In this document: piece by piece, positions 2,621 through 45,794 of the stretch
How positions within the stretch are numbered: the stretch's first letter is position 1
How the letters are laid out: every line of letters begins with the position of its first letter
Source: an uncultured Victivallales bacterium
GTDB taxonomy: Bacteria > Verrucomicrobiota > Lentisphaeria > Victivallales > UBA1829
Assembly (NCBI GenBank): GCA_944390795.1
Contig: CALXRI010000004.1
Coordinates: 1-64,000 of the forward strand
DNA: 64,000 bases
Direction: 5' to 3'
Position numbers and translations under genes: made by a program
Notes under the pieces: generated by a model
Databases searched by the model: none
The model's input: the letters and a program-made list of their open reading frames with translations, nothing else
What the model was told of the DNA's origin: nothing

Positions 2621-5209
2621 TCAGCGTGTCTGACGGAAGATCAGAAGGTCTCCCGCCCGAAGGCGGAGCGGCTTTTCCGGCGTCCATTCCCCGTCTCGCA
2701 TCTTTCCTGCGAGAGCCTCTCCGTTCCGTGCGGCGGAATCCGCGGAGAGCCGGAAAGCGGTGAATTCCGCCTCCCCGTGCAGAATGCGGAGTTTCTGTTC
2801 CGTTTCTGTGCGTTCATAGGTTCCCCAGAGTGCGCCGAGCGACCAGAAGCAGCGGAAATCCCCGGAGAGAACCGGGCGGAATCCGATCATGCCGCGCACC
2901 ATGTCGTAGCAGAAGCCGCTGTAAGCCTGAAGCATCGCATAGGAGGCCATGCTGCGAGCGTAGTTGCTGCCGCATTCGATCTCATTCCAGGGATTGCGGT
3001 GCAGGCCGTCGTAGCGTGCGCGGATCGCCCTGGCCAGAGTTTCTCCCTTTTCCGTTTCGCCGATCATGACCAGATGGGCGGCCGCGGCCCATTCAAACCC
3101 TGTCATGGTCTCTGAGTTGTAGGGCAGGGGAATTACGGGGCGTTCCTTTCCTTCCGGCCATTCGCAGATGAGGCAGCCCCCCTCGTCATTGACGGAAAAG
3201 GTGCGCCATGTGTTGGCAACTTCACGCATGGAGGAGCGGAAATTGTAACGGTAGATCGCATGAAGTGTTGAGCGGATCCTGTCCGGCTGGAAAATCCCGC
3301 CGATGCCGTACAGCGACGCATACCACTGTCCTAGATGGGCGTCGATATGACATCCGTCGGCGGTCTGATACTTGATCTGACTGTGCTCGGCATCCCAGTA
3401 GGGATTGTTTTCCGGGGTTTCCTTCCCCTGGAGGAAGGGGAAAAGCAGCGTCTGGTCATGGATATCCACATCCTGGCGGTAGTATTCCCCGTTGAAGAGA
3501 TGCTCCTCGGACCATTTCCGCCCCTTTTCGAAGAGTTCGGCACAGAGCGTTCCGAATTCCGGATCACCGCAGCAGGGCGCCATTTCAGCTGCCGCCTTGA
3601 GAGCGCCGAGATAATGACCGTTGAGCCATCCGGAAGCGCCGAACTGCTCCATGTCGAGCGTATGGTGCTGGCGCCCGGTGATTACGCCGGTCCGTTCCGG
3701 ATCCCAGCGGTCGGCATTCCGGGGGCTCCACGCATACTCGATTGCCTGCCTCACAGCAAACCAGATGGACTTCAGCCATTGCGTATCGCCGGAGATTTTC
3801 CACTCACGGTAGATTTTCATGACCTCTCCGTAGGTCCCGTCCACGCAGGGACGCATCCACGAGGCACGCGCTTTGATTCCCAGAGGCAGACGGAGCCGGA
3901 ACTGCCAGCCGCCTTTTTCATCGAACCCGTATTTTGCCTGGGATTCCCGGATGGAGCGTTCCAGATCGGGAAAGAGCAGCGGGAGCGCCTGCGCATAGTT
4001 CCATACATGCTGGCAGGTTCCGGGACAGGATCCCCGTTCCGGCCCGACACCTTCCCATCCCCAGAGTGTGCCGTCCTCCACCCGGAGACAGGTCGGCGAG
4101 ATCAGAACCGCGAGATTGGCCGCCGCCCCCTGAAGCGAAGCCTCCGGAATCGTGCTTTCATGCAGCGCCTGCCGGAAAAGAAAGACCTTTTTCCGGGTTT
4201 CCTTCCATACGGGGAAAAAGCGGCGCGCCGCATCCGCCGCGCCGGAACAGAGACGCGTGTAATAATTTTTCCAGCGGTTTTCCTTCAGGCCGGAATACTG
4301 GAGATCCTCCTCCGAGGGAGGTCCCCAGGTGTTCTGACGGTTCGGAACATACCAGCTGATCAGGAAGCGGACCGTCCGCCGTTCCCCCGGCGCCAGTGTA
4401 AAATGTCCTGCAAGCATTCCGCTGTCGCAGGCGTATACTCCGGCACGTCCGGAATAACTCCGGTTGCGGAACATGCCGGGCGTGTTCAGATCGTTCCAGT
4501 AGACTTCCAGAGAGTCGCGCCAGCGTCCCCGGAACCAATACTCCTGGAAGGAGACGCTTTCCGCATCGGTGGTAAGCGCAAGTTCGCCGTAATCGAAGGA
4601 ATCCGGTGCGAGATGGTTGCCGAGCAGGAGGGAAGTCAGAGATCCCTCCCGTTCAACCCGGTTGTCCGCCTCGGGATTTTTCCAGGGATTGCCAAGAGTG
4701 GCGGCGCAGCTGTAGTCATATGCGGAATCCGAAGTGTTCTCAATCGTAATTTCATAAAGGGCGACAGGCAGGGAAGCCAGATCGGATTCTCCCGGGACAA
4801 ACGGACTCCATGCCGTCAGAAACACCCGGCCGGGAAAAGCGGGATCCGTGAAAGTGAGTTCCGCCGCAGGAAACTCCCCGTTGAATTCGCATTCCCGGAA
4901 ATGAGGCATTCCGCACAGAGTGCCGATGTCGGGTCCCCAGCCGAAACCGTGATACACGGCATCGCGCCCCTCGAACTCTCCGGAAAGTCCGGAAATGAGA
5001 TCGCCATTGAGAATGCGTGCCGCTTCGACACGTCCATCCCGCTCCGCGCGGACGGCAAAGTGGGAACAGCCGTTCAGGAGCCCTTTCCCCGCATGGTTGA
5101 AAATTTCCCAGTCGATCAGACGACCGTTTCCGGCAAGTCCGATGCAGCCGGCGCCGATTCCGCCGACCGGAAACGAGACTTCGCGCAGCGCTTCTTTCCG
5201 CAGTTTCAT
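2621..5209 (-). CDS. Glycoside hydrolase family 116 (glucosylceramidase/beta-glucosidase type)
   Basis: Predicted exo-acting glycosidase of 862 residues, a normal size for GH116 (human GBA2 and bacterial beta-glucosidases and beta-xylosidases). The N-terminal beta-sandwich domain starts with the family hallmark FPVGGIGAGCIGLAGNG. The catalytic (alpha/alpha)6 domain occupies about residues 340-800. By alignment from memory with GBA2 motifs, E386 in GWEG is the likely nucleophile and D623 in DAHLGQW the likely acid/base. A late block PYNSETMTGFEWAAAAHL is also typical. No signal peptide is visible, so it probably acts in the cytoplasm on imported glycosides. AAGGAGT stands before the ATG. It diverges from the AraC gene at 5313 over about 100 bases with back-to-back promoters, so that regulator probably controls it. 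Substrate is not readable from sequence. Confidence 0.88.
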   Translation of the reverse strand: MKLRKEALREVSFPVGGIGAGCIGLAGNGRLIDWEIFNHAGKGLLNGCSHFAVRAERDGRVEAARILNGDLISGLSGEFEGRDAVYHGFGWGPDIGTLCGMPHFRECEFNGEFPAAELTFTDPAFPGRVFLTAWSPFVPGESDLASLPVALYEITIENTSDSAYDYSCAATLGNPWKNPEADNRVEREGSLTSLLLGNHLAPDSFDYGELALTTDAESVSFQEYWFRGRWRDSLEVYWNDLNTPGMFRNRSYSGRAGVYACDSGMLAGHFTLAPGERRTVRFLISWYVPNRQNTWGPPSEEDLQYSGLKENRWKNYYTRLCSGAADAARRFFPVWKETRKKVFLFRQALHESTIPEASLQGAAANLAVLISPTCLRVEDGTLWGWEGVGPERGSCPGTCQHVWNYAQALPLLFPDLERSIRESQAKYGFDEKGGWQFRLRLPLGIKARASWMRPCVDGTYGEVMKIYREWKISGDTQWLKSIWFAVRQAIEYAWSPRNADRWDPERTGVITGRQHHTLDMEQFGASGWLNGHYLGALKAAAEMAPCCGDPEFGTLCAELFEKGRKWSEEHLFNGEYYRQDVDIHDQTLLFPFLQGKETPENNPYWDAEHSQIKYQTADGCHIDAHLGQWYASLYGIGGIFQPDRIRSTLHAIYRYNFRSSMREVANTWRTFSVNDEGGCLICEWPEGKERPVIPLPYNSETMTGFEWAAAAHLVMIGETEKGETLARAIRARYDGLHRNPWNEIECGSNYARSMASYAMLQAYSGFCYDMVRGMIGFRPVLSGDFRCFWSLGALWGTYERTETEQKLRILHGEAEFTAFRLSADSAARNGEALAGKMRDGEWTPEKPLRLRAGDLLIFRQTR

Positions 5210-5229
5210 GATAAAAACTCCTTTGCAGG

Positions 5230-5259
5230 TTGATTTTTTTCTGGCTGGATGTTATTATA
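5230..5259. promoter_or_regulatory. Overlapping divergent promoters of GH116 and AraC genes
   Basis: On the plus strand TTGATT (5230-5235) and TATTAT (5253-5258) are 17 bases apart and face the AraC gene. On the minus strand a perfect TATAAT lies at 5259-5254 and faces the GH116 gene, with only a weak -35. Because the -10 boxes overlap, the two promoters should compete for polymerase, a common design for a regulator controlling a divergent target. Confidence 0.6.
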
Positions 5260-5312
5260 CACGAGATGGAAGAAAAATAGAATGTAAAAACAGGCCGGAA
5301 AGATATGATTTT

Positions 5313-6188
5313 ATGCCGTTGACTGAAATTGCACAGTGGCGTTCCATTCACAACATGATTCGTCTGGAACTGCACCAGATCGCATTCGCGGACTTTGCGT
5401 GGCAGGGGCGGAACACTTATTTTTTCAACAGGTTGTTCCTGGTCCGTGCGGGGGATGGCGAGGTGCGGAACCATTCCGGCTCCGGGCGTTTCCGTCTCCG
5501 TCCGGGTTTCGGGTGCTTTATGCCGGAAGGACTTGATCTCGGTTTTGAATTCCGACAGGGACTGCAGTTCCTGTGCTTTCACTTCAATCTGTCGCTGCTG
5601 CCCGGCGTGGATCTTTTCGGGCGGGAAACACTTTGCCGGGAGTTTCCTGTCGATGTCGCAGAAATCAGCCGGATCATTGAACATATCTCCGGAGTGCCGG
5701 AGTGGCGGAAAATCTGCGAAACCGAGGCGTTTCTCTGGAAGATCATCGGCAGGCTTCCGCTTCCTTCCGGGGCGCGTCTGGCGGAATTTACCAGCCTTGC
5801 CGGACGCTATGGAAGACTGCTCGGATTCATCCGGGAAAATCTCTCCGCCCGTCTGGATATCGATTGTCTTGCAGAGGCCGCCGGCCTTTCGCGCGGCAGG
5901 CTTTCGCGGAACTTTTCCCGGGATTTCTCCATGCCTCTCAAATCGTTTCTGCAGAAGGAACTGGTCGCGCAGGCTTCGCGCTATCTGCTTGGCTCGACGC
6001 TGTCTGTGCGCGAAATTTCCGAACGCCTCCACTTCAGCAGTGAATATTATTTTTCAAATTTCTTCCGGAGATGCACCGGAACGTCTCCGACATGCTTCCG
6101 CCGGGAGAACCCGGGCGTGCAGACACTGTTCCCCGTCGTTGCCGCGGCGGATTGCCGTCAAGAGCCTTCCCCGGGCGCTTTTCCGTAA
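5313..6188 (+). CDS. AraC-family transcriptional regulator, divergent from GH116
   Basis: Regulator of about 291 residues. The frame is open further upstream, but that part overlaps the divergent GH116 gene and the promoter, so I start at the ATG at 5313 (MPLTEIAQW); 5355 is an alternative. The ribosome-binding site is weak (GGAAAGAT). The N-terminal half has the AraC cupin pattern FFNRLFLVRAGDGEVRN and RLRPGFGCFMPEG. Residues 170-270 hold the two helix-turn-helix units, near LAEAAGLSRGRLSRNFSRDF and ISERLHFSSEYYFSNFFRR, with the closing G-T-S-P. Divergent position makes the GH116 gene its probable target and autoregulation likely. The last 30 residues beyond the usual end are unremarkable. 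Confidence 0.88.
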   Translation: MPLTEIAQWRSIHNMIRLELHQIAFADFAWQGRNTYFFNRLFLVRAGDGEVRNHSGSGRFRLRPGFGCFMPEGLDLGFEFRQGLQFLCFHFNLSLLPGVDLFGRETLCREFPVDVAEISRIIEHISGVPEWRKICETEAFLWKIIGRLPLPSGARLAEFTSLAGRYGRLLGFIRENLSARLDIDCLAEAAGLSRGRLSRNFSRDFSMPLKSFLQKELVAQASRYLLGSTLSVREISERLHFSSEYYFSNFFRRCTGTSPTCFRRENPGVQTLFPVVAAADCRQEPSPGAFP

Positions 6189-6384
6189 TCGGGAAATTGC
6201 CGGTGGACGGCGGGAAATTCCAGGCATGACAATCCGGACATCCTGATACAAGGTCCTTTACGGTTCTGCCGCACTTCGTGCGGAAAAGGAAGGAGAATGT
6301 CCGGTCCCTCCCTGGCAGTCAAGGCTCCAATCCGGCATAACCGGGCGCGATCCCATGTTTATTCAAAAAAATCAGGTCAATAGT

Positions 6385-41618: not shown

Positions 41619-41852
41619 ATGCTCAGTCTTACTGAAATTCTTGTCATTTTCATCGCCATTCTTCTCCTGTTCGGCGCAAAACGGATTCCCGAAATCGCCC
41701 GCGCCCTCGGCCGCGCCAGCCATGAATTCAAAAAAGCCAAGGACGACATCATCAATGAGACCGAGGAACTCCGGGATGCCGCGGAAAAAAGGGCGGCTCT
41801 CGAGGATCGGGCGTCCGAAAAGACGCAGGACGGAAAAAAAGACGCCGAGTGA
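41619..41852 (+). CDS. tatA: Twin-arginine translocase pore subunit TatA
   Basis: A 77-residue protein with one N-terminal membrane helix (LTEILVIFIAILLLFGAKR), the family hinge FGAKRIPEIARALGRA, and a charged amphipathic tail rich in Lys/Glu. TatA oligomers form the passage for folded proteins carrying a twin-arginine signal. No separate TatB is visible, so this is the two-component TatA-TatC layout, in which TatA does both jobs. tatC follows after 12 bases. ACGGAG precedes the start. Confidence 0.95.
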   Translation: MLSLTEILVIFIAILLLFGAKRIPEIARALGRASHEFKKAKDDIINETEELRDAAEKRAALEDRASEKTQDGKKDAE

Positions 41853-41864
41853 CGGGGATTCTTC

Positions 41865-42614
41865 ATGCGTGACGCAAAAGATCTCTCCTTCCTCGAACAT
41901 CTGGATGTCCTGCGCGGCGTTCTTTTCAAAATCATCGGCGCATTCGCCGTTCTCTGCATTCCCGCGTGGTTCTGCGTGCCTCCCGTCGTGAAATGGCTGC
42001 TTGCCTATGCGGCGCCGAAAGGGTTCAAACTGCATTATTTTTCCCTGATGGAACCGTTTTTCATCCAGCTGAAAGTCATGCTGGTTCTGGCGTTTTTCGC
42101 CTCTCTTCCGTTTACCCTGTACTGTCTTTGGGGATTTGTCGCGCCGGGGCTGACCGAACGGGAGCGCCGGGGAGTCCGTTCTCCGCTGCTGCTGAGCTTT
42201 TTCCTGGCGCTGGCTGGTGCGGCGTTCGGCATTCTGCTGATCGTGCCGGTGATTGTCAGATTTTCGCTCTCGTTCCAGGGGGAGAACATGACGCCGGTGA
42301 TCGGGATCGGCAGTTTCATGTCGATGATCCTGCTTTCCGTGCTGGCGTGCGCGGTGCTGTTCCAGTTTCCGGTGCTGCTGCTGATTCTGCTGTCGCTGGG
42401 CGTCATTGATCTGGAGTGGGCGCGGCGGCAGCGTCCGGTTGTGATTGTGGCGATTCTGGCGGTTGCTGCGATTGTCACGCCGCCGGATGTGCTCAGCCAG
42501 ATTCTGGTGGCTGTGCCGACTTATCTGCTGTATGAGGCCAGTCTGCTCGTTTTCCGTTTCTGCCGGAAACCGGATGAGAGTCTGGCGGTCTATGAAGAAG
42601 AGCTGAAAAAATAA
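41865..42614 (+). CDS. tatC: Twin-arginine translocase receptor subunit TatC
   Basis: A 249-residue polytopic membrane protein with about six hydrophobic segments. The signature SFLEHLDVLRGVLFK at the N terminus is the twin-arginine docking region, and the proline-rich AAIVTPPDVLSQILVAVPTY lies in the conserved C-terminal half. It recognises the RR signal peptide and recruits TatA. Length and motif order are normal. The following two genes both encode proteins with twin-arginine motifs, so the operon makes the transporter with its own clients. Confidence 0.95.
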   Translation: MRDAKDLSFLEHLDVLRGVLFKIIGAFAVLCIPAWFCVPPVVKWLLAYAAPKGFKLHYFSLMEPFFIQLKVMLVLAFFASLPFTLYCLWGFVAPGLTERERRGVRSPLLLSFFLALAGAAFGILLIVPVIVRFSLSFQGENMTPVIGIGSFMSMILLSVLACAVLFQFPVLLLILLSLGVIDLEWARRQRPVVIVAILAVAAIVTPPDVLSQILVAVPTYLLYEASLLVFRFCRKPDESLAVYEEELKK

Positions 42615-42636: not shown

Positions 42637-43599
42637 ATGAACAGACGTGATTTTCTGAAGACTACGGCGGCGCTCGCCGCTCTCGGCGCTGCGGCGAAAG
42701 CGGGGAAACTGTTTGCGGCCGCCCCGAAGGCTTCCGCCGGAGCCGCCGCATCCGGGTCCGGAACCCCCGACATGGTGGCGATCAAAGGCGGAGAGCCTGC
42801 GCAGATGTTTGACATGGGGATTCGGGAACTCGGCGGAATGGGCCGTTTCGTCAAAAAGGGGCAGAGCGTTGTCATCAAGCCGAACATCGGATGGGACAAG
42901 GAGCCCGAATACGGCGCCAACACGAATCCGGATCTGGTCCGGCGCGTCATTGAACACTGCAAAGAGGCGGGCGCTTCCAAAATCTATGTTTTTGACACGA
43001 CCTGCAGTCCGTGGGAACTGAGCTACAAGAGGAGCGGAATCGCCGAGGCGGCGGAAAAGGCGGGTGCAATCGTGGTCGGCGGAGACAGCGCGAAAGACAA
43101 ATCCTATCTCGACAACAACTATGTCGCAGTCGACCTCCCCAATGCGAAAAGCCTGAAGAAAATGAAGATGCACCGCCTGATCCGTGAGTGCGACGTCTTC
43201 ATCAACATCCCGATCCTGAAACACCATGGCGGCGCACATATGACCTGCTGCATGAAGAATCTGATGGGGATTGTTTCCAAGGACACCCAGCGTTATTTCC
43301 ACAGCCGCGGGCTGCATCAGTGCATTGCGGAGGTCTGCGCCTACCGCAAGCCCGATCTGAACATCGTGGACGCCTACCGGGTCATGACCAAGCGCGGCCC
43401 CCGCGGCGTCGATCTCAGCGACGTCGTCATCATGAAATACCAGATGCTCGGCACCGATCCCGTGGCGCTTGACACCGCCGCGGCACGCCTCATCAAGTTC
43501 AATCTGAACCGCATCGGGCATATCCGCATCGGAGAATCTCTCGGAGTCGGCACGACGAAGCTCGGCAGCCTGAACATCAAACGGATCACGGTATCATGA
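42637..43599 (+). CDS. Tat-exported DUF362-domain protein
   Basis: A 320-residue protein with a clear Tat signal at its N terminus, NRRDFLKTTAALAALGAAAK, directly downstream of tatC (AAGGAG before the ATG). The mature part is a DUF362 domain: FVKKGQSVVIKPNIGWDKEP, NPDLVRRVIEHCKEAGASKI, FINIPILKHHGGAHMTCCMK and the closing TDPVALDTAAARLI. DUF362 proteins often go with iron-sulfur proteins and may carry or insert a cofactor, but no activity is established. The next gene, overlapping by ATGA, encodes a polyferredoxin, so the two probably act together on the outer face of the membrane. Confidence 0.88.
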   Translation: MNRRDFLKTTAALAALGAAAKAGKLFAAAPKASAGAAASGSGTPDMVAIKGGEPAQMFDMGIRELGGMGRFVKKGQSVVIKPNIGWDKEPEYGANTNPDLVRRVIEHCKEAGASKIYVFDTTCSPWELSYKRSGIAEAAEKAGAIVVGGDSAKDKSYLDNNYVAVDLPNAKSLKKMKMHRLIRECDVFINIPILKHHGGAHMTCCMKNLMGIVSKDTQRYFHSRGLHQCIAEVCAYRKPDLNIVDAYRVMTKRGPRGVDLSDVVIMKYQMLGTDPVALDTAAARLIKFNLNRIGHIRIGESLGVGTTKLGSLNIKRITVS

Positions 43600-45086
43600 A
43601 GTGGAAACTGCCTGCCTGGCCGCGCGTTCTGCGGATTGTCTGCGCGGGAATTGTGCTGACCGCACTGACGGGCGGAATCTGGTTCTTTCCCGGACATGAG
43701 GCTGTTTTCGTCTCCCAGTTCGGTTCCAGTCTGCTTGCGCTGATCTCTTCGTTTTCGCTGGGGGCGCTTGCCGCCGTTCTGGCGATTGCCGTTCTGACGC
43801 TGCTTCTCGGCAGGATCTACTGCTCGGTGCTCTGTCCGCTGGGGATTCTGCAGGATCTTCTGATGGCGTTCAAGCGGCGTTTCGCCTTTCAGGGAACGTA
43901 CCGCAGGATCAAGTATCCCGTGCTGGCGCTTCTGGCGGGACTGGCTTGCGGAGGGCTGATGCTGCCGCTGGCGTTTCTGATGCCGTCGGCAAATTTTGTT
44001 TCGATCGTGAACAATGTCTTCCGCGAGGTCTGCGCAAAGGTTTTCTACTGGTTCGATCTTCCGGTCGGCTCCGTGACGGTGCATCCGGCCATCGGGGGAT
44101 TCCTCGGCGCATGGATTGTTTTCATTCTGCTTGCCGCTGCGGTGCGCTGGCGCGGACGGATCTACTGCAACACGCTCTGTCCGGTCGGCGCGCTTCTCTC
44201 GCTTGTTTCGCGCTTTTCCCTGTGGAAGATCACGATTGCGGACAACTGTGTTTCCTGCGGCGCGTGCGAACGTGTCTGCAAAAGCGGATGCATTGATTCC
44301 GGAAACCGCCGTGTCGTCAATGAGAACTGCGTCATGTGCCTGAACTGTCTCGGGCAATGCAGATTTTCCGCGCTGAAGTTTGTCCGCCGGACCGGAGCGA
44401 AAGCGTCCGGAACTGAAGTGCAGTCCGCTTCCCGGCGCGATTTCCTGATCGCAGGCGGCGCGCTGGTCGCGGGTGCCGCCGCGGGGAAGGCCGCGCATGC
44501 GCTCGGCGGAAAACGCAAGGATGAAAATGCTTGTGCTCCCGCGATGCCGCCCGGCGCGGTTTCCTATGACCGTTTCTCCGCGCGATGCGTCTCCTGCGGA
44601 CTCTGCATTGCCGCGTGCAAGGGGCATGTGCTCGCCCATGCGACGGATCAGTACGGGCTGCGGGGATTTCTCCAGCCGTACATGCGTTTTTCCGGCGGCG
44701 CGTGTGAATTCAACTGCAATGAATGCATGAAGGTCTGTCCCTGCGGCGCGCTCGACAAGCTGACGCTGGAAGAGAAACAGCACTGGCGTGTGGGGCTTGC
44801 CCGCTATACGCGGACGCACTGCATCTCCTATCTGGACGGGACCGACTGCGGCGCATGCGCGGAACATTGTCCCGTGGGCGCTCTTGAAATGGTGCCGTAC
44901 AAGGAAACGACGCTTCCGAAAGTGAACGAGTCGCTCTGCATCGGCTGCGGCGCGTGCGAAAACATCTGCCCCGCCCGTCCGGTCAAGGCAATCCGCATTG
45001 CCGGTGTTCCCGAACAGCGTTTCGTGGAAAAGCCGGTCGCGACACAGTCGGCGGTGCTGGATTCCGGGGAGGATTTCCCATTCTAG
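43596..45086 (+). CDS. NapH-like membrane ferredoxin fused to a Tat-dependent polyferredoxin
   Basis: A 496-residue iron-sulfur membrane protein. Residues 1-210 form about five membrane helices of the NapH/YccM type with two Cys-x3-Cys-Pro loops (GRIYCSVLCPLG and GRIYCNTLCPVG). Two 4Fe-4S sites follow at about 215-260 (CVSCGACERVCKSGC, CVMCLNCLGQC). At residues 280-281 comes an internal twin-arginine signal, SASRRDFLIAGGALVAGAAA. The last 190 residues carry about four more cluster motifs: CVSCGLCIAACKG, CNECMKVCPCG, CGACAEHCPVG and CIGCGACENICP. The parts correspond to NapH followed by NapG (MauM), normally separate genes. The internal Tat signal would place the last domain outside while the first sites stay inside. 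Its stop lies well before the next gene. Confidence 0.88.
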   Translation: MKWKLPAWPRVLRIVCAGIVLTALTGGIWFFPGHEAVFVSQFGSSLLALISSFSLGALAAVLAIAVLTLLLGRIYCSVLCPLGILQDLLMAFKRRFAFQGTYRRIKYPVLALLAGLACGGLMLPLAFLMPSANFVSIVNNVFREVCAKVFYWFDLPVGSVTVHPAIGGFLGAWIVFILLAAAVRWRGRIYCNTLCPVGALLSLVSRFSLWKITIADNCVSCGACERVCKSGCIDSGNRRVVNENCVMCLNCLGQCRFSALKFVRRTGAKASGTEVQSASRRDFLIAGGALVAGAAAGKAAHALGGKRKDENACAPAMPPGAVSYDRFSARCVSCGLCIAACKGHVLAHATDQYGLRGFLQPYMRFSGGACEFNCNECMKVCPCGALDKLTLEEKQHWRVGLARYTRTHCISYLDGTDCGACAEHCPVGALEMVPYKETTLPKVNESLCIGCGACENICPARPVKAIRIAGVPEQRFVEKPVATQSAVLDSGEDFPF

Positions 45087-45221
45087 CATTCGGAATGAAG
45101 CGCGTTTTCCGGTTCGCCGCGAATCATTTTTTTTCGGGGTGGAACTTGAAAAATCCCTTTTCTGCGGTAAGTTAAGGAATTGTTTTTTTCAGACACGGGA
45201 CACGAAGAGGATTCCAAAGAC

Positions 45222-45794
45222 ATGAAAGACAGCATTCTGGTGCAATTTCTCAGGAAGCCGCTGACAACCGGCGCAATCTGCCCGAGTTCCCGCGAATTGT
45301 CCAGAACGCTGACCGAATGCATTCATATTGAAGAGGCGCGCAATATCGCCGAGCTCGGGCCGGGAACGGGCGCCATCACGGCGGCGATTCTCTCGGCCAT
45401 GAATCCGCAGGCGCATTTCTTCGCCGTGGAACTCAATGAGGCGGTGATTCCCGCATTCCGGCGGCGTTTTCCGCATGTCAGGCTTTACAACGACAGCGCG
45501 GCGAATCTTGCAAAGATCATGGAACTCGAGTCCGTATCCCGGCTGGACGTCATTCTCTCAGGGCTTCCGTGGGCCTCCTTTCCGGATCATCTCCAGGAGG
45601 AGATCCTGCACGCGGTTCTGGAGGCTCTTCCGGACGGCGGCTACTTCACGACATTCGCCTATCTGCAGGGAACATGGCTTCCGACCGGGATCAAATTCCG
45701 CCGCCGTCTGGAAAAATATTTCTCCCATGTGGAAAAATCCCGGATCGTCTGGGGCAATATCCCGCCTGCGTTCGCCTACCGCTGCCGGAAATGA
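45222..45794 (+). CDS. SAM-dependent methyltransferase, phospholipid N-methyltransferase-like
   Basis: A 190-residue class I methyltransferase. I use the ATG at 45222 (MKDSILVQFLRKP). The motif I region is NIAELGPGTGAITAAIL with an acidic second strand HFFAVELNE. The opening FLRKPLTTGAICPSSRELSR is typical of PmtA-type phosphatidylethanolamine N-methyltransferases and related rRNA-dimethylase-like enzymes, and DVILSGLPWASFP sits where this group has its N/D-P-P-x catalytic loop. It may therefore make methylated phosphatidylethanolamine or phosphatidylcholine at the membrane surface. It is transcribed alone. A ribosomal RNA or small-molecule substrate cannot be excluded. Confidence 0.78.
   Translation: MKDSILVQFLRKPLTTGAICPSSRELSRTLTECIHIEEARNIAELGPGTGAITAAILSAMNPQAHFFAVELNEAVIPAFRRRFPHVRLYNDSAANLAKIMELESVSRLDVILSGLPWASFPDHLQEEILHAVLEALPDGGYFTTFAYLQGTWLPTGIKFRRRLEKYFSHVEKSRIVWGNIPPAFAYRCRK

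Follow-up and report, generated by a model that had tools for sequence, protein, structure and literature searches.

How a single polypeptide could place iron–sulfur clusters on both sides of a membrane, and which enzyme such a protein would serve, are the questions raised by a gene in the 64,000-nucleotide stretch of DNA analysed here as a whole (the window). A sequence-only reading of the window described the gene at 43596–45086 as a NapH–NapG fusion with an internal twin arginine at residues 280–281, and proposed that Tat transfers its last helix and Sec/YidC inserts its first ones. The idea is right in kind but was already published: Tooke et al. 2017 (eLife 6:e26577, PMC5449189) described NapH–NapG fusions of the same design as a "polyferredoxin" (PFD). 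The window protein is thus a further PFD member. Here we report its conservation, predicted topology and genomic setting, in which the PFD lies beside tat genes and an exported partner.

The PFD gene is a single uninterrupted ATG frame of 496 residues and the last gene of a compact tatA–tatC–DUF362–PFD unit, whose genes all point the same way and are spaced by 12, 22 and −4 bases. The same uninterrupted frame is found in three sister species (79–92% identity), which rules out a chance fusion of frames or an assembly error. In profile searches, NapH models cover residues 56–262 and NapG models residues 274–460, so that the NapH-like and NapG-like parts lie within one chain, as in the PFD of Tooke et al. 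Conservation was assessed in an alignment of 41 sequences, comprising the window PFD and 40 homologues, all from the same order (Victivallales). The features of the unit are as follows.

41619–41852, plus strand: tatA-like gene, 77 residues, from the list of open reading frames; homologues precede tatC in sister loci
41865–42614, plus strand: tatC, the only copy in the genome (single genome-wide match; PF00902, E 2e-51; TIGR00945 over cut-off)
42637–43599, plus strand: DUF362 protein with an N-terminal Tat signal (MNRRDFLK) and a predicted LarA-like fold (PF04015 and PF10518 over cut-off)
43596–45086, plus strand: NapH–NapG fusion PFD, 496 residues, ATG frame, its start overlapping the DUF362 stop (ATGA)
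43617–43685, plus strand: predicted TM1 (residues 8–30), from the AlphaFold2 helix and hydropathy
43719–43808, plus strand: predicted TM2 (residues 42–71), from the AlphaFold2 helix and hydropathy
43821–43838, plus strand: first CX3CP motif (C76–P81); C76 and C80 in 41 of 41 homologues
43920–43982, plus strand: predicted TM3 (residues 109–129), from hydropathy
44082–44144, plus strand: predicted TM4 (residues 163–183), from hydropathy and AlphaFold2
44166–44183, plus strand: second CX3CP motif (C191–P196); C191 in 40 of 41, C195 in 41 of 41
44247–44360, plus strand: two 4Fe–4S sites (C218–C255), predicted cytoplasmic, with Fer4 matches; each in 40 of 41, one row being gapped
44433–44438, plus strand: internal twin arginine R280–R281, 41 of 41 in the order; a Tat-signal HMM candidate below cut-off
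44442–44504, plus strand: TM5 (residues 283–303), weakly hydrophobic, the proposed Tat-inserted helix, from hydropathy (AlphaFold2 helix 279–303, low confidence)
44511–44519, plus strand: KRK after TM5; K/R at this place in 41 of 41 homologues
44586–44969, plus strand: four NapG-like 4Fe–4S sites (C331–C458), proposed to be periplasmic, from profile matches and the alignment
45111–45125, plus strand: hairpin with a T run, resembling a terminator, at the end of the unit; the placement fits, and the scan total is near chance level

Downstream of the unit, at 45180–45794, lies the gene of a methyltransferase that has ornithine-lipid/phospholipid N-methyltransferases as relatives but scores under the family cut-off; it recurs beside the PFD in one sister species only (locus L043).

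The two cluster motifs before the twin arginine (C218/221/224/228 and C245/248/251/255) and the four behind it (C331/334/337/341, C370/374/377/381, C409/418/421/425 and C448/451/454/458) bear out the count of the sequence-only reading. Their cysteines are invariant in the alignment save for one gapped row, and the two CX3CP motifs (C76/C80 and C191/C195), absent from that reading, are conserved to an equal degree, one of their cysteines being substituted in a single row. Tooke et al. count seven clusters in PFD, three cytoplasmic and four outside (PMC5449189); motifs for three cytoplasmic and four outer sites are present in the window PFD, their occupancy being predicted. The twin arginine, which directly precedes the last transmembrane domain (TMD) as in the PFD of Tooke et al., is identical in all 41 sequences inside a linker that is highly variable in length and sequence. 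Neither the twin arginine nor the clusters can therefore be put down to chance. In a set of 140 homologues spanning several phyla, 119 have RR before TM5, 20 have KR and 1 has KK, so the twin arginine is not absolute.

The hydropathy profile shows four strong helices, and directly after the twin arginine a fifth that is weak. The AlphaFold2 model (mean pLDDT 86), which takes no account of the membrane, has helices at residues 8–30, 42–71 (broken), 103–119, 166–186 and 279–303, with low confidence (about 52–66) over the linker and TM5. Together these predict five TMDs with the N terminus inside, placing the K/R-rich loops 68–108 and 184–282 on the cytoplasmic side and iron–sulfur clusters on either side of the membrane. 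On simple hydrophobicity scales, TM5 falls below the weakest of TM1–TM4 in 36 of the 41 homologues, and positively charged residues trail it throughout.

The sequence-only reading had likened this arrangement to actinobacterial Rieske proteins. One of these, QcrA, has three TMDs, the last of them Tat-dependent, and a 2Fe–2S Rieske domain. The parallel stands as far as both are multi-helix proteins with a Tat-dependent last helix, proposed for the PFD; the sequences are unrelated, and the published NapH–NapG fusion is the closer precedent. In that work, the PFD of the deltaproteobacterium MLMS-1 (Q1NSB0) has five TMDs with the twin arginine before TMD5, reporters placed after TMD5 were Tat-translocated in Escherichia coli, Tat dependence was tested by twin-arginine substitution, and the low hydrophobicity of TMD5 with its trailing positive charges was found to govern the handover from Sec to Tat (PMC5449189). 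The window PFD has in common with Q1NSB0 the fusion itself, the five TMDs, the twin arginine before a weak TMD5, the trailing charges and the predicted three cytoplasmic and four outer clusters, a likeness that rests on described features; Desulfobacterales homologues are present in our survey. It differs in coming from another phylum (Lentisphaerae-type, Verrucomicrobiota) and in sitting within a tatAC–DUF362 unit; the sections of Tooke et al. consulted here (PMC5449189) make no mention of a DUF362 setting.

These features suggest an assembly route. Sec/YidC would insert TM1–TM4 with the N terminus inside, leaving the CX3CP motifs and two 4Fe–4S sites at the cytoplasmic face. Sec would then release TM5, because this helix appears too weak and is trailed by positive charges. 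The NapG-like domain would fold around its four 4Fe–4S clusters before Tat transfer, and RR280–281 would target TM5 to TatAC, so that the four clusters end up periplasmic. The dual Sec/Tat interpretation is well supported by sequence features, to which the published homologue and the distribution of tatC add.

Of the order's 137 genomes, 86 encode PFD and 99 TatC; 83 have both, 3 PFD only, 16 TatC only and 35 neither. PFD is thus present in 83 of 99 TatC-positive and 3 of 38 TatC-negative genomes (Fisher p 7e-17, uncorrected for kinship), and in 46 of the 83 genomes with both it lies within 5 kb of tatC. A scan of named genomes, a search that the sequence-only reading had proposed, revealed homologues in Bacteroidota (Bacteroides nordii, Parabacteroides, Prevotella and others), Lentisphaerae, Verrucomicrobiota, Riflebacteria, Ignavibacteriae and Desulfobacterales, as well as single MAGs labelled Planctomycetaceae and Alphaproteobacteria. 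Of 141 loci from several phyla, 54 have tatC within 5 kb, in at least five arrangements (tatA–tatC–DUF362–PFD, tatA–tatC–PFD–aldo/keto reductase, divergent tatAC, tatC–tatA–DUF362–PFD, and PFD followed by tatAC).

The exported partner is either DUF362 or a Tat-signalled 4Fe–4S aldo/keto reductase (AKR), and almost never both: DUF362 is encoded nearby at 82 of the 141 loci, an AKR at 47 and both at 3. Mapped onto a quick PFD tree, the loci show 3 changes of partner type against at least 19 of tat linkage, some of which may reflect losses or the ends of contigs; the partner thus follows the PFD subfamily, and the tat genes have been repeatedly linked or unlinked. We found nothing in the open literature joining DUF362 with a polyferredoxin or with tatC, a weak negative as subscription journals were outside its scope, nor, within the same scope, an aldo/keto reductase joined with twin-arginine, 4Fe–4S and periplasm. 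The repeated encoding of PFD beside the Tat machine and one of two exported partners, in gut and anaerobic bacteria, looks new. All six KR loci with an adjacent tatC have AKR partners; the other KR loci are without an adjacent tatC. KR precedes TM5 at loci L107, L117, L123, L130, L137 and others, some with tatAC directly upstream. At locus L134 the PFD has KR and the DUF362 protein lacks RR, at L136 the PFD has KK, and at L155 the DUF362 protein has RK; Tat may have been lost, or the route changed, in these three lineages. A Bacteroidales AKR partner (L128, 7488–9296) has a DUF1893 (TM1506) domain added at its C terminus.

The DUF362 protein of the window scores 183 bits against PF04015 (gathering cut-off 24 bits), and RR is present in 30 of 32 aligned DUF362 partners, the others having KH and RK. 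Foldseek assigns its model a LarA-like fold (TM about 0.5 to lactate/malate racemases, 12–16% identity), and this predicted fold agrees with the common Pfam clan of DUF362 and LarA, CL0471 (PMC11770544). The protein differs from the LarA lactate racemase superfamily in being DUF362 rather than DUF2088 and in carrying a Tat signal, and the likeness is one of clan and predicted fold. Solved structures include no sequence relative of this protein, and for the PFD they include relatives of the ferredoxin-like parts only; Foldseek with the whole PFD model gave no significant match.

A scan of the genome with TIGR01409, a search by family models and not exhaustive, gave nine Tat-signal candidates at E up to 1, of which the two PFD loci hold seven. 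Two come from the window, one being the DUF362 gene and the other the internal signal of the PFD (ranked eighth, below cut-off), and five from a locus on contig C13 with a second PFD; the remainder are a Tat-signalled protein on contig C2, DUF1501-like by eye, and one weak match. The second PFD (locus L008, C13:20000–32000; 4963–6287) is split, with 7 bases missing relative to two sister species. The missing bases cost the second NapH cluster its fourth cysteine and put the sequence out of frame; a NapG-like open reading frame with its own RR starts from a GTG at the break. Tat-signalled 4Fe–4S aldo/keto reductases flank this PFD, within a Tat-signalled cluster (L008, 1805–8910) of an FMN reductase-like protein, a DUF6282 protein and three 4Fe–4S aldo/keto reductases.

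Three other explanations bear on TM5 and its setting. TM5 might never be translocated, the twin arginine being incidental and all six clusters remaining cytoplasmic; the weak hydrophobicity and low AlphaFold2 confidence of TM5 and the KR pair in 20 of 140 homologues would fit, but the invariant twin arginine in the order, the co-occurrence and linkage with tatC, the homology to NapG and the published export of a homologue make this very improbable. That TM5 is a Tat signal removed by signal peptidase I, whose cut behind residue 302 (AHA|LGG) would free a soluble NapG-like protein, is unlikely, if slightly less so: an AxA site does follow the h-region in the genus of the window, but it is not conserved beyond the genus in the 41-sequence alignment, and Tooke et al. 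needed an added cleavage site for reporter release (PMC5449189). That PFD is repeatedly linked to tatAC, in several different gene orders, and is nearly absent from TatC-negative genomes could also mean that PFD and DUF362 serve the Tat system itself, in the maturation or quality control of its substrates. The 16 TatC-positive genomes of the order lacking PFD, and the build of the PFD as an electron carrier, speak against such a role, as does the E. coli Tat system, which, like other well-known ones, manages without a PFD; we regard it as highly doubtful.

By analogy with NapGH, the dual Sec/Tat-inserted PFD is likely to relay electrons across the membrane to partner enzymes in the periplasm. 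With NapH and NapG, the quinol dehydrogenase of periplasmic nitrate reductase, it has in common the domain order, the CX3CP motifs and the two plus four cluster sites; it differs in being one chain rather than two, and it falls far below the curated cut-offs for NapH (TIGR02163; 70 versus 213 bits) and NapG (PRK09476; 76.5 versus 269 bits). A role in nitrate respiration is rejected here, because NapA has no match in the genome (95% complete). In NapGH, the membrane part is thought to oxidize quinol and the outer clusters to serve a periplasmic partner (PMC5928378, citing Kern and Simon). Working in a similar manner, the membrane part of the PFD would collect electrons from quinol or a cytoplasmic donor, and its outer clusters would hand them to the Tat-signalled DUF362 protein, which the unit encodes immediately upstream; in a sister branch of the family, Tat-signalled 4Fe–4S aldo/keto reductases take the place of DUF362. 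The source and direction of the electrons, like the partner's reaction and the topology, are inferred. The quinol route is plausible, the membrane module of NapH, CX3CP motifs included, being the proposed quinol-oxidizing part (PMC5928378). A low-potential donor in the cytoplasm, for instance ferredoxin, delivering electrons through the cytoplasmic clusters with protein and topology unchanged, is a serious rival, though we think it somewhat the less probable: two ferredoxin-type sites are predicted to face the cytoplasm, and the genome lacks NapA and, in a search with futalosine-route models, any match to futalosine-pathway menaquinone genes (MqnA/D-type), although it has two UbiA-type genes. 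Taken as a whole, a dual Sec/Tat-inserted, NapGH-like relay feeding the exported DUF362 partner is probably the best explanation of the locus.

The window fusion carries the published two-translocase assembly route into another phylum, and the tatAC linkage with its two near-exclusive exported partners, more than the fusion itself, is the part worth pursuing. The pattern includes common gut genera (Prevotella, Bacteroides and Parabacteroides) and offers a handle on the roles of uncharacterized Tat-exported DUF362 proteins and 4Fe–4S aldo/keto reductases, while the natural PFDs, KR variants included, are substrates for studying the Sec-to-Tat handover. Tentatively, Tat in Lentisphaerae-type anaerobes and many Bacteroidota might largely build one periplasmic redox module, a PFD with an exchangeable partner (LarA-fold DUF362 or 4Fe–4S AKR). 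If so, this module would permit periplasmic reductions without NAD(P)H.
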